Shown piece by piece: positions 3,301 through 35,923 of a stretch of DNA of 36,088 nt; position 1 is the stretch's first letter, and every line of letters begins with the position of its first letter. The position numbers and the translations under genes are program-made. Source of the stretch: Chloroflexota bacterium (lineage in GTDB: Bacteria > Chloroflexota > Anaerolineae > Anaerolineales > Villigracilaceae); NCBI GenBank assembly GCA_016235425.1, contig JACRLC010000018.1:12127-48214 (forward strand). Direction: 5' to 3'. The notes beneath the pieces were generated by a model, which was not told the origin of the DNA, ran no database searches, and worked only from the letters and a program-made list of their open reading frames with translations.

Positions 3301-3509
3301 ATTCATCTCCTGCCGATAAAGTAAATCCAGATGCGGTGGTTTCAACACAGAGGAGACTTGATTTGAACGCAATCTCTTACCTTTGAGGGCGTATCAGAGG
3401 CGGAGTGAGTTCTGAGAAATTCCTCAACATATGTTCTGCTTTTGGGGATGCTGTGATATGATGTGCCAAAATTGTAAATGTCCAATCAACTCTCTATTGG
3501 TACATCAAT

Positions 3510-3590
3510 AGGACTTTCGCTTTCACGGAGTCCGAAGTCTCCCGACTTCGGCGCAAAATCAGGAGATTTTGCACTCCAGGCGAAAGCCCT
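3510..3590. repeat. Cloverleaf-like dispersed repeat, copy 1
   Basis: An 81-bp element that can fold as a multi-branch structure. The basal stem pairs AGGACTTTCGC (3510-3520) with GCGAAAGCCCT (3580-3590) with one mismatch. Inside it GGAGT (3527-3531) pairs with ACTCC (3573-3577). Two adjacent hairpins follow: CCGAAGTC/GACTTCGG (3532-3551) and GCAAAATC/GATTTTGC (3553-3572). The two hairpin tips contain TCTCC and GGAGA, which are complementary. Copy 2 at 10289-10369 is the same length and nearly identical; copy 3 at 35873-35923 keeps the inner fold with compensatory changes. It lies between genes, upstream of the secreted PLD-fold protein. Confidence 0.85.
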
Positions 3591-3652
3591 GATCAAGTGT
3601 AAATTGATTGTTTTATCAGTTGGAGAATTTTAATGGCCGAGTTAAAAACAGC

Positions 3653-3719: not shown

Positions 3720-6335
3720 ATGAAAAGATCGTTGAGTTCCATTGTTTTGCGGTTGACCGTGCTGTTGCTTGCGGCGATATTGGTCGCATCCACGGCGCTG
3801 GTTAATCGTCCCGCTTTTGCTTCGAGTTCCGATCCTGCAAGCGGACCGGTCCACGCGGTGCAGGTTTCCGCCCCGACGGGTGTCATCGTCTATGCCTTGT
3901 ATTATGACACCTACACAGCCAATGAGCCTGAAGAGGCCTTTGAGCTAATCAACATGGGAAGCACTGCCGTGGATCTATCCGGCTGGCATGTTACGGATGG
4001 AGAAGGAACAGTCACCTTTCCATCCTTTTCTTTTCAACCCGGCCAGCGCATCTGGATAACCAAAACCGCCACGACCTTCCGGCAGGAATTCGGCCTGTCG
4101 CCGGATTTCGAATACGGCGGCAACTCAGACCCAACGGTCCCGGATATGACCGGCACGTCCCCATCCTTCGCGAATACCGGCGATGAGATGCAATTGCTCG
4201 ACGCGTCCAACGCGGTCGTGGATGCCATCGTCTATGAAGGCGGTAACACAGCCACGGCCGGCTGGAGCGGCACGGCGATTTCCCCATATACCCAGGGCTT
4301 CTTTGGCGCAGAGGGACAGATCCTGTATCGCAAACTGGATGAGACCACAGGCCTGCCCGCCTCCGACACGAACGCGGCCGGCGATTGGGCACAGGCCACC
4401 GACGACAACGTGAATGGCAAGAAGGTAATGTATCCCGGCTGGGATTTGGAGCATTTCTTCTTCCCGCCCAAGGTGACGCAAAATGCGCGGCTGACCTACG
4501 TGGTCGCACCGGATAACGTCTACGCCGCGTACGTGAATGAACTGAATACCGCATCCACGTACATTTACATTGAGGGTTATACGTTCGATAATGCCGATAT
4601 TGCCAATGTTCTGCTGGCAAAGCTGCAGGCGGGCGTTCAGGTGAAGGTCCTTCTGGAAGGCGAGCCTGTCAATGGCGTTGGCGATCAGGATAACTGGATT
4701 TGCCAGCAGTTGGAAGCCAATGGCGGCGAGTGCTGGTTCATGTTCACCGATTCGGCCAGCGGCATCCATGACCGTTATGCCTACCAACACGCCAAGTTCA
4801 CAATCATTGATGGCGCAACCCTGATGACCGGCTCGGAGAATTTGAACTACTCGTCCATGCCTTCCGACAACAAGAGCGATGGCACGATGGGCAACCGCGG
4901 TGCGTATCTCATTACGGATGCCCCGGCGTTGATCAGCCACGCGCTCGATATCTTCGACCATGATCTTGATCCCGTCAACCATCGCGATGTCCGGCGCTGG
5001 AGCGCGGCCACCGACAGCCCGGCTCCCGGCTTCGTCCCTTCGTATGCTTCCGGGGGCACGATCTATCCCGTCCAATTCCCGAATCCGCTGACCCTCAATG
5101 GCAGTTTCGATTTCGAAGTCATCCAATCACCGGATACCGATCTTCGTGCCGGCGATGCCCTGCTTGGGATGGTCGCCCGCGCCGGGGCGGGAGGAACGGT
5201 TTTCGTCGAACAGCTTTATGAGCGAAAATTCTGGGGGCCGACCACGAGCGACCCGGCCACCGATCCAAACCTGCGGCTCGAAGCATATATTGACGCGGCG
5301 CGCCGCGGAGCAAAGGTTCGCCTCCTGCTCGACTCCTTCTACGATGATCCGCTCGACGTTCGCAGTAACACCGCCGCCTGCGCTTACGTCAACAGCGTTG
5401 CATCGTCCGAATCCCTTGACCTGCAATGCCTGATCGGCAACCCGACCGGCACGGGCATCCATAACAAGATGATTCTGATCTGGGATGGAACGCAGGGCTG
5501 GACGCACACCGGCTCGATCAACGGTTCTGAAAACTCCGTAAAGAATAATCGCGAACTGGCAGTGCAGGTGCGCTCAACCGATGGTTACAACTATCTCCTG
5601 CAGGTCTTCAATTATGACTGGGTCGTTTCGGGCGGTGGGCCGGTTTTGCCGACGCCCACTCCAACGGCCACCCTGACCAACACACCGACTCCCACTGCGA
5701 CCTTTACCCCGACTCCGTTACCGACGAATACGCCAACGCCGACACCTTTGCCGACCAGCACCCCCACAGCGACATTTACGGCCACGCCCTCCGGCCCGCA
5801 GTATCCGTTGATCAGCGAAGTGTTCTACGACACGCCCGGCACGGACTCGAACGAGGAGTGGATCGAGATTTACAACCCGACTTCGTCCGCGATTGATCTG
5901 AGCAATTACAAACTCGGCGATGAAGAGACGCGCAACGGCACGGAGGGCATGTACCGCTTCCCCGCCGGGGCCAGCATCGCGGCCGGAGCGAAGATCACGG
6001 TAGCCTTGAAGTCCACCGGCTTCTTCGCGCTGTATGGATTCAAGCCGACGTATGAAGTCATCAACACCGACGCGTCCGTGCCGAACATGAGCGTGTACTC
6101 GGCCTGGGCAACAGGCACCATCTCGCTCGGCAACACCGGCGACGAAGTGCTTCTGCTGAACGGTTCCGATGCCGCGGTTGATGTTGTCACTTACGAAGCC
6201 GGTGTGTATGCCGGTGTTACACCGCATCCCGGCGTGGCGGTGGGTCATTCCATCGAGCGTTCGCCCGCCAATCAGGACACCAATAATTGCAGTAATGACT
6301 TCGTGAACCGCGCAACGCCGACGCCGGGAAATTGA
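3720..6335 (+). CDS. Secreted PLD-fold protein with two lamin-tail domains
   Basis: The product is about 871 aa. It opens with a signal peptide (about residues 1-35), then a lamin-tail domain (about 52-175), then two phospholipase-D half-domains with HKD-type motifs: HAKFTIIDG (His at 357) and HNKMILIWDG (His at 581), each followed by the expected Gly-Ser and Asn/Glu segments (TGSENLNYSS, TGSINGSENS). A Pro/Thr linker (about 643-695) joins a second lamin-tail domain (about 697-840). Two HKD motifs in one chain make a complete PLD-type active site for hydrolysis of phosphodiester bonds; extracellular nuclease or phospholipase are both possible. I chose the ATG at 3720 (GAGGAG six bases upstream, directly before the signal peptide). 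An in-frame ATG at 3633 also has a GGAG site and would add 29 residues. Confidence 0.85.
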   Translation: MKRSLSSIVLRLTVLLLAAILVASTALVNRPAFASSSDPASGPVHAVQVSAPTGVIVYALYYDTYTANEPEEAFELINMGSTAVDLSGWHVTDGEGTVTFPSFSFQPGQRIWITKTATTFRQEFGLSPDFEYGGNSDPTVPDMTGTSPSFANTGDEMQLLDASNAVVDAIVYEGGNTATAGWSGTAISPYTQGFFGAEGQILYRKLDETTGLPASDTNAAGDWAQATDDNVNGKKVMYPGWDLEHFFFPPKVTQNARLTYVVAPDNVYAAYVNELNTASTYIYIEGYTFDNADIANVLLAKLQAGVQVKVLLEGEPVNGVGDQDNWICQQLEANGGECWFMFTDSASGIHDRYAYQHAKFTIIDGATLMTGSENLNYSSMPSDNKSDGTMGNRGAYLITDAPALISHALDIFDHDLDPVNHRDVRRWSAATDSPAPGFVPSYASGGTIYPVQFPNPLTLNGSFDFEVIQSPDTDLRAGDALLGMVARAGAGGTVFVEQLYERKFWGPTTSDPATDPNLRLEAYIDAARRGAKVRLLLDSFYDDPLDVRSNTAACAYVNSVASSESLDLQCLIGNPTGTGIHNKMILIWDGTQGWTHTGSINGSENSVKNNRELAVQVRSTDGYNYLLQVFNYDWVVSGGGPVLPTPTPTATLTNTPTPTATFTPTPLPTNTPTPTPLPTSTPTATFTATPSGPQYPLISEVFYDTPGTDSNEEWIEIYNPTSSAIDLSNYKLGDEETRNGTEGMYRFPAGASIAAGAKITVALKSTGFFALYGFKPTYEVINTDASVPNMSVYSAWATGTISLGNTGDEVLLLNGSDAAVDVVTYEAGVYAGVTPHPGVAVGHSIERSPANQDTNNCSNDFVNRATPTPGN

Positions 6336-8870: not shown

Positions 8871-9054
8871 TCGGGAAATTTAGGGAACAATGGTATTGCA
8901 ATGGATGATTCGGGGAGAAGGGAAATTGGCGTTACATGGTACCGCATAAATAACCAAACCAGAATTATCATTTTTACTCGAAATTTCCGCCAATAAGTTT
9001 AGTGATTTATGCAACAAGCGGTAGAATCAAGGAACATCATTTTAAGGAGCCAGC

Positions 9055-9457: not shown

Positions 9458-9500
9458 CGCCAAAGAAGATGACAGATGTTGTACGTTAGGTATTGTTTCT

Positions 9501-9547
9501 AACAAACCCGGGGCGGACTTTTTACGTCCGCCCCGGGTTTGTTTTGT
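9501..9547. terminator. Strong bidirectional hairpin
   Basis: AACAAACCCGGGGCGGAC (9501-9518) pairs perfectly over 18 bp with 9526-9543 around a TTTTTAC loop and is followed on the plus strand by TTTGT. It sits between the plus-strand small gene and the minus-strand hypothetical gene, where a terminator serving both would be expected. Confidence 0.6.
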
Positions 9548-9583
9548 ATCGGGCCTGTGCTTGAGGCTCGAACTACACCTCCG

Positions 9584-9934: not shown

Positions 9935-10460
9935 GCTCTCCTATATTTATTTGTAAATGGCCGGGTTGGAACATCGCTTACGATGTGCGATAACAGCTCC
10001 CAACAATGCCTCCTCATGGCATATTGGAAGTATGGACCCAGCCGCGCTTGTCTCAGGCTGTAATTTGTTATGGGTGTTGAAGGCCTACGTGGGGAAGGGG
10101 AAAGAGAAGCGGGATTTGCAAGACGGGTACATGATTTGTCTCCTTTCGTCAGGCAAAGGGTTAGTCTTACATCCGGATGCAAGACTGACATTCTACCTGA
10201 TGTGAAAGTGGATGAGCCCGACGACTCCCCTGCGATTTGCGTACCTTGATGAGCCGCGATTGAGAACAGACTTAGAATTGATTTAAGTAGGACTTTCGCT
10301 TTCACGGAGTCCGAAGTCTCCCGACTTCGGCGCAAAATCAGGAGATTTTGCGCTCCAGGTTAAAGCCCTGTTAAGTACACGCGGGAGGGTGCAGCTGACT
10401 TACCTGAAATTAAGGTGTCAGCCGCTTCAAATAGCTGTCCCCTTCCGTCATACGTTGAAA
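9935..10460. other. 526-bp intergenic region with repeat copy 2
   Basis: No coding frame is convincing: the plus frame at 9957-10205 and the minus frame at 9931-10335 have odd composition, and the latter runs through the repeat. The notable elements are the cloverleaf repeat at 10289-10369 and a near-perfect palindrome GTCTTACATCCGGATGCAAGAC-like element at 10164-10185 (arms GTCTT/AAGAC around CATCCGGATG). The rest may be decayed coding sequence; I cannot identify it. Confidence 0.45.
10289..10369. repeat. Cloverleaf-like dispersed repeat, copy 2
   Basis: The same 81-bp length as copy 1 at 3510-3590, differing at about three positions. The two inner hairpins are identical. One base of the middle stem differs (GCGCTCC in place of GCACTCC) and the basal stem is weakened (AGGTTAAAGCC in place of AGGCGAAAGCC), so selection may act on the inner hairpins more than on the basal stem. 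Same orientation as copy 1. Confidence 0.85.
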
Positions 10461-35872: not shown

Positions 35873-35923
35873 GGAGTCCAAAGTCTCCGACTTTGGCGCA
35901 AACGTCAGGAGACGTTTGACTCC
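35873..35923. repeat. Cloverleaf-like dispersed repeat, copy 3 (inner part only)
   Basis: GGAGT (35873-35877) pairs with ACTCC (35919-35923) around two hairpins: CCAAAGTC/GACTTTGG (35878-35896) and GCAAACGTC with its near-complement GACGTTTG (35898-35918). Relative to copies 1 and 2 both hairpins have changed on both sides so the pairing is kept. The tips still contain TCTCC and GGAGA. The basal stem seen in copy 1 is absent. The repeat lies 29 bases from the end of the ISL3 element. Confidence 0.8.

Follow-up and report, generated by a model that had tools for sequence, protein, structure and literature searches.

Architecture of the repeats in the window

The window analysed here is a stretch of 36,088 nucleotides from a Chloroflexota draft genome (5.0 Mb, 109 contigs), and it carries one short repeat at three places (Table 1). 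Copy 1 (3509-3591) and copy 2 (10288-10370) are 83 nt long each and 96% identical, in agreement with the original prediction that they are equal in length and nearly identical. Copy 3, whose core lies at 35873-35923, retains the same fold with paired changes on both sides of the stems, as had also been noticed. A 16-nt pattern allowed up to 3 mismatches gave 7 matches in the window versus 0.63 expected, 6 of them within the three copies. Copy 1 has an intact outer stem; in copy 2 this stem is weakened and damaged, and copy 3 lacks it. This gradation had been described correctly, but the outer stem belongs to one sub-type of the repeat only. The inner stem formed by the feet is present in all three copies, copy 2 having a T opposite G.

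Table 1. Components of the three repeat copies in the window
Feature	Position	Strand	Sequence elements
Left outer arm, copy 1 (extended sub-type)	3510..3520	+	AGGACTTTCGC
REP unit 1, copy 1	3527..3551	+	foot GGAGT, stem CCGAAGTC/GACTTCGG, loop TCCC
REP unit 2, copy 1 (inverted)	3553..3577	-	foot GGAGT, stem GCAAAATC/GATTTTGC, loop TCCT
Right outer arm, copy 1	3579..3590	+	GGCGAAAGCCCT, pairs with left arm of copy 1
Left outer arm, copy 2	10289..10299	+	
REP unit 1, copy 2	10306..10330	+	identical to unit 1 of copy 1
REP unit 2, copy 2	10332..10356	-	foot GGAGC
Right outer arm, copy 2 (decayed)	10358..10369	+	GGTTAAAGCCCT
REP unit 1, copy 3	35873..35896	+	stem CCAAAGTC/GACTTTGG, loop shortened to TCC
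REP unit 2, copy 3	35899..35923	-	foot GGAGT, stem CAAACGTC/GACGTTTG, loop TCCT

The unit consists of a GGAGT foot, an 8-bp stem and a TCCN loop, with a conserved tip C-TCCN-G. Bases 1 to 6 of the stem are variable, pair 7 is either T-A or A-T (TCTCCYGA or ACTCCYGT) and pair 8 is C-G. What had been described as a cloverleaf-like repeat is indeed a folded structure, not one cloverleaf but two such units in opposite orientation with their feet outside. The tips TCTCC and GGAGA are complementary, but a separate function for them is not needed, because they are one loop read on the two strands of inverted units.

Folded as single-stranded DNA, the three cores form two hairpins closed by pairing of the feet (for copy 2, on the + strand only), with z-scores of -5.20 to -7.15, and 0 of 200 shuffled sequences were equally stable. 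With RNA parameters the two-hairpin fold was obtained for copy 1 on both strands and for copy 3 on the - strand, and the minimum-energy fold differed for copy 2 on both strands and for copy 3 on the + strand. These folds bear on the idea that the repeats owe their retention mainly to a role in RNA, as terminator, mRNA stabiliser or attenuator, and that their mobility is only apparent. The stable RNA fold of copy 1 is in keeping with such a role, and a role at the RNA level as well has been proposed for REPs elsewhere (PMC3733652, available text), but the RNA-parameter minima of copies 2 and 3 just mentioned lose a fold that the strands folded with DNA parameters keep. The one terminator-like site between 3300 and 3800 lies at 3748-3761, outside the repeat. 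No Rfam family matched within the window at its gathering score, and a weak mir-680 match at copy 1 (17.9 bits for a gathering score of 104, E 0.53) lends no support. We consider a mainly RNA-level explanation very improbable.

A genome-wide family of units with compensatory changes

The genome was searched with the pattern GGAGTN6WCTCCHGW, which gave 66 + 66 matches, a few of which overlap or look like chance, compared to 0 + 2 for the reversed control. The similarity is therefore not a random one confined to the window: the family is dispersed through the genome. The stricter pattern GGAGTN{5,9}TCTCCYGA gave 46 + 47 matches (reversed control 0 + 1). Since the stem is left unspecified in this pattern, these 93 matches, minus 2 with another stem length, were used to examine covariation. 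Over 6 bp, 75 of the 91 units pair perfectly; one mismatch is seen in 13 and two in 3. Watson-Crick pairs make up 527 of the 546 stem pairs, compared to 385 ± 8.5 and at most 414 when the 3' arms were re-dealt among units (2000 trials), and both-sided changes occur at 5 of the 6 stem positions, in a table whose cells count copies that share descent. The stem changes are thus compensatory, and together with the depletion of units in ORFs they support the earlier proposal of selection on a folded structure.

Under relaxed rules that still require stem pairing, the loci fetched from this genome yielded 136 units in 85 clusters, namely 51 pairs and 34 single recognised units. The feet point outwards in 50 of the 51 neighbouring pairs, with spacers of 1-30 nt; the sole exception is a tandem pair beside a transposase gene, C63, described below. 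Only 28 of the 85 clusters lie mostly inside ORFs of at least 110 aa, compared to 83% under random placement, which leaves 57 outside. Because the ORF rule is crude, with the longest start taken, the extragenic enrichment is probably understated. Such a preponderance of extragenic clusters would also suit RNA elements. The partner stems of one pair tend to differ: they are alike in 1 of 50 pairs versus 5.6 expected and, with copies removed, in 1 of 42 versus 4.3 (P ~0.05), which is suggestive only.

The extended sub-type with outer arms is represented by nine near-full-length copies, 92-100% identical, on eight contigs, with flanks that look unlike by eye; this near-identity suggests fairly recent copying. 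We considered the outer arms as a target palindrome of which empty copies should exist, and rejected this idea. The arm pattern gave 9 + 6 matches (control 1 + 3), of which L259-L261 and L263-L271 carry units. Of the others, L258 and L272 resemble chance matches, and one, L262, has an arm but no unit; the control would account for as many. The arms are taken here as part of an extended sub-type of the repeat. The genus mate G240, whose gene content differs at the position of copy 1, showed no clean empty site for this copy, and no target-site signature of the units was identified.

Several other repeats were seen in the same genome. One of them, CYTGAGCYTGYCGAAGG, has 33 + 32 matches (control 0 + 0) and often interrupts the GGAGT unit at one and the same point, which lies between the 5' stem arm and TCTCC. 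Of 30 copies of this second repeat inspected by eye, 7 are placed in this way. It was noted at L274, L275, L279, L285, L292, L295 and L298, and also at L010, L012, L015, L016, L018 and L025, which are partly the same places. At L271 the CCTGAGC repeat stands within a copy of the extended sub-type and is in turn split by a further short sequence, apparently through nested insertions; a reading of the nested CCTGAGCYTGYCGAAGG repeat as a CGTC-tagged REP was dropped. In the window, positions 2305-2399 (~94 bp) recur with 95-99% identity at six other places of the genome and represent another repeat family, positions 8931-9034 (~100 bp) recur with 81-93% identity at eight other places, and the hairpin at 9495-9550, whose 18-bp stem surrounds CCCGGGGCGGAC, is perhaps a terminator.

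The units flank one clade of RAYT genes

Four Y1 transposase-like genes were found in the genome with Pfam, and a model of REP-associated tyrosine transposases (RAYTs) likewise found four, two of which (C39 and C4) are outside the Pfam list. C63 (G000:C63) encodes a RAYT (TnpA_REP) of 176 aa. The protein scores 106.5 bits against the NCBIfam model REP_Tyr_transpos NF047646 (cut-off 80), matches E. coli TnpA_REP 4er8 with E=9.6e-11, and contains the motifs NHYH (HUH) and Y---NP. GGAGT- or GGACT-footed units stand on both sides of its gene. The mobile or REP-like origin that had been suggested is thereby supported, down to the co-occurring RAYT gene sitting between copies of the unit.

The same enzyme superfamily includes an IS200-like TnpA of this genome (C75), of which the repeats might be passengers instead. 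We found no unit in the 6 kb surrounding C75, and it is the C63 RAYT that the units flank, so this possibility deserves hardly any credence. L036:1428-3065 is an ORF of 545 aa with a C-terminal Y1 transposase domain (Pfam). By eye only, its long N-terminal part resembles a response-regulator receiver, and no HUH motif was seen by eye; a GGAAT-footed unit lies ~130 nt behind it.

RAYT relatives were taken from the order and the family. Units are found near 12 of 12 close RAYT loci (53-100% identity, including one 72-aa fragment), on both sides in 10. At L174 they stand on one side, ~275 nt away, and at L384 they stand beside the fragment, a 72-aa match of 69% identity placed by identity and not on the tree. 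In contrast, none was found at 50 RAYT loci of at most 49% identity (L190-L202, L385-L393 and 28 others), some of which are cut by contig ends, nor in 632 kb of letter-shuffled loci. The clade of the C63 RAYT is supported at 99/96. Flanking of the close RAYT loci and its absence from the distant ones identify the repeats as REPINs, and a function in RNA would not predict the flanking of one RAYT clade.

At the level of genomes the link is only partial. Match counts range from 1 to 132 (median 27.5) in the 10 family genomes that have a full-length close RAYT, and their median is 2 in the other 142. The Mann-Whitney P is 4e-5, and 1.6e-4 when the genome of the window is left out, relatedness not being corrected for. 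At least 10 matches nevertheless occur in 26 of these 142 genomes, up to 72 in G267, 63 in G183 and 52 in G271. Together with G314, these three genomes (45-72 matches) showed no RAYT match to P0001 at E≤1e-30, nor did the genus mate G240 (22 matches). In G224, which has a close RAYT with one stop breaking its frame, the pattern matches only once. Loss of the RAYT, gaps in draft assemblies or another enzyme could account for the unit-rich genomes without a close RAYT; we tentatively favour the first two. The link between units and RAYT is strong at the level of the gene.

These same unit-rich genomes would also fit the view that the repeats, although derived from a RAYT, have ceased to spread and are at present retained by the host, for instance as sites for protein binding. 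In the available text of the respective papers, TnpA_REP is termed a domesticated transposase (PMC8266576) and REPs and BIMEs act as binding sites (PMC2817692). The fairly recent copying suggested by the near-identical extended copies on eight contigs points the other way, and we regard this view as unlikely. It concerns the present use of the repeats and is compatible with the proposed RAYT origin.

Distribution of the units and comparison with described REPs

With the strict pattern, a match was present in 36 of the 201 genomes of the order survey, but 17 genomes had one control match, so that single matches are close to noise. At least 10 matches were found in 4 of the 201: the genome of the window (91), G183 (43), G197 (13) and G186 (10). 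The wider pattern GGAGTN6WCTCCHGW gave a match in 104 of the 152 genomes of the family survey, with at least 10 in 34. A stem-specified pattern matched at least 104 stretches in named genomes. Among the matches listed, 77 of 80 are titled Chloroflexota, mostly Anaerolineales or Anaerolineae, the remaining 3 being two contigs of one Nitrospirae MAG and one Calditrichota MAG.

The repeats resemble the GTAG REPs and REPINs of E. coli, Pseudomonas and Stenotrophomonas in being short hairpins with a 5' tetranucleotide foot, arranged in inverted pairs, mostly extragenic, and in flanking a RAYT gene. As with REPs and REPINs, a short palindrome recurs many times and lies mainly in extragenic places, the units are inverted, and a cognate RAYT gene is flanked by them (a REPtron). 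They differ by a GGAG foot in place of GTAG or GTGG and by the tip C-TCCN-G. GTAG repeats have been reported mainly from gamma-Proteobacteria, whereas the GGAG units, among the matches listed, come mostly from Chloroflexota MAGs. IS200/IS605 palindromic ends likewise combine an HUH/Y1 enzyme with a hairpin and a 5' guide tetranucleotide, but they bound a complete insertion sequence, while most units here are free of an enzyme gene.

T. roseum belongs to the Chloroflexi. Its GTAG-23 repeats are also tagged palindromic repeats, and the GTAG list includes this phylum, but they have a GTAG foot and form blocks at few loci, and are set apart from the present units by this description (PMC3733652, available text).

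Most REPs have been sorted into GTAG and CGTC super-families, and the degenerate GTAG forms given in the available text of Di Nocera et al. (PMC3733652) are without GGAG. The GGAG foot of the present units falls outside the first super-family (GTAG, or the listed GYAG, GYRG, GTRG, GTMG and GTGG) and, being GGAG-like, outside the second (CGTC, TGTC or CCTC). Flank scans that allowed two changes in the foot returned GGAGT, GGACT, GGATT, GGAAT and one weak GACGT. The C63 protein is a TnpA_REP by its curated family score and its HUH and Y---NP motifs. It shares NHYH and the class 2 Y---NP with TnpA_Y1 subclass 2.8, as described in the available text of Quentin et al. 2018 (PMC6006769), and has 176 aa for a median of 199, but motif comparison places it outside this subclass: it has WW instead of W[YH] and YVFWNP instead of YIHYNP. 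Subclass 2.8 was reported there from Cyanobacteria with GT[AG]G feet. The search of these authors was for GT[AG]G, with atypical structures in subclass 2.6 and class 3. No word starting with GGAG occurs in the available main text of PMC3733652, PMC6006769, PMC2817692, PMC12306157, PMC8266576 and PMC3686654, the last two being judged by word counts. A literature search by title, abstract start or counts, with most subscription papers outside its scope, gave no description of GGAG-footed REPs. The GGAG foot is a difference from the described GT[AG]G REPs and is new as far as this literature goes.

Feet, tips and residue 101

The hairpins beside more distant RAYTs are of other kinds, often with a GGAG(T)-like foot and the tips CTTG, TCT, GCGGACTTCAGTCCGC or GCGGCGACTCGTCGCCGC; the feet of single loci were read by eye. 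One RAYT clade, including C39, has mostly the classical GTAGT foot, L196 having GTTG. C39 itself (L256) is flanked by classical GTAG-footed hairpins and C63 by GGAG-footed ones; both systems therefore stand side by side in one genome. A third RAYT of this genome (C14, at L037) has hairpins with GGATT, GGACT or GGAGC feet and the tip GCGGACTTCAGTCCGC, which resembles the tip of the GTAG clade.

On a tree of 53 RAYTs, the three tip types together need 2 changes, compared to a mean of 14.4 after shuffling. Labels for this count were assigned by eye; 23 rows had none, and CTTG tips were later seen in a few of these (L178, L179). A branch supported at 99/96 separates off the CTCC group. Two changes are needed for the CTTG group, and support for the TCT group is weak (42/54). 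Pairing of the GGAG foot with the CTCC loop was considered as a general mechanism and rejected because related clades with a GGAG foot carry other loops (CTTG or TCT).

The E. coli TnpA_REP residues discussed for GTAG recognition include Q95, E100, H101 and R104 (Quentin et al., PMC6006769, available text). At residue 101, in E. coli TnpA_REP numbering, R is present in 7 of 7 members of the GTAG clade, and T or S in 44 and F in 1 of 45 rows labelled GGAG by clade, some of whose feet are degenerate (GGAAC/GGATT at L191, GGACT at L216 and L219). A phylum survey covered 123 loci, 122 of which have a RAYT ORF (118 genes after 4 repeats, L321, L325, L326 and L342); the 61 rows with a clear foot (60 different) were kept and the other 61 dropped. 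With T or S at 101, the foot was GGAG in 32 rows (31 different) and GTAG in 1 (L378). With H or R it was GTAG in 20 and GGAG in 4 (L334, L341, L366, L383), and with other residues GGAG in 1 and GTAG in 3. In these counts GTGG is taken as GTAG, and the hairpin scan may include chance hairpins. The association is strong by number but has the exceptions just listed, and we claim no significance for it because the tree offers only 2-3 independent contrasts. Residue 101 is a candidate specificity residue for the foot, a hypothesis drawn from these alignments. A tentative and on balance rather doubtful scenario is that within the Chloroflexota RAYT lineage the guide changed from GTAG to GGAG, with the foot tracking residue 101, a site of contact with GTAG in the E. 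coli enzyme, and the tips (CTCC, CTTG, TCT and others) diversified clade by clade. If true, foot and tip would be two separately evolving recognition codes within one enzyme family.

Proposed mechanism and implications

The three repeats are very probably REPINs, non-autonomous inverted pairs of REPs whose cognate enzyme is the C63 RAYT, an HUH/Y1 single-strand transposase. Unit anatomy, copy number, arrangement in dimers, compensatory change and association with one RAYT clade are observed in the genomes. By analogy with the systems treated in the available text of PMC8266576 and PMC6006769, the C63 RAYT may bind, cleave and move the units, with the foot as a guide. In the available text of Corneloup et al. 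(PMC8266576), loop positions of two REPs (Sm and Mb) were required by their enzymes, and with the Mb enzyme changes in the foot altered the dinucleotide that was cut. Each unit would fold once the strand is single-stranded, the RAYT would bind the tip of the hairpin and the foot, and the foot would act as guide for the cleavage dinucleotide. The pair of units would then be excised or copied and inserted elsewhere. Applied to GGAG, the guide rule proposed in that text (PMC8266576) would select CT (A3G4) and perhaps CC (G2G4).

REPs are commonly identified by their GT[AG]G foot, and searches that require it would miss GGAG-footed REPs. In the Chloroflexota set, which forms a natural series, feet and tips vary separately and the enzymes remain alignable, so that the way in which a RAYT reads its hairpin, and the choice of the cut by the foot, can be tested by swapping feet, tips and one residue.
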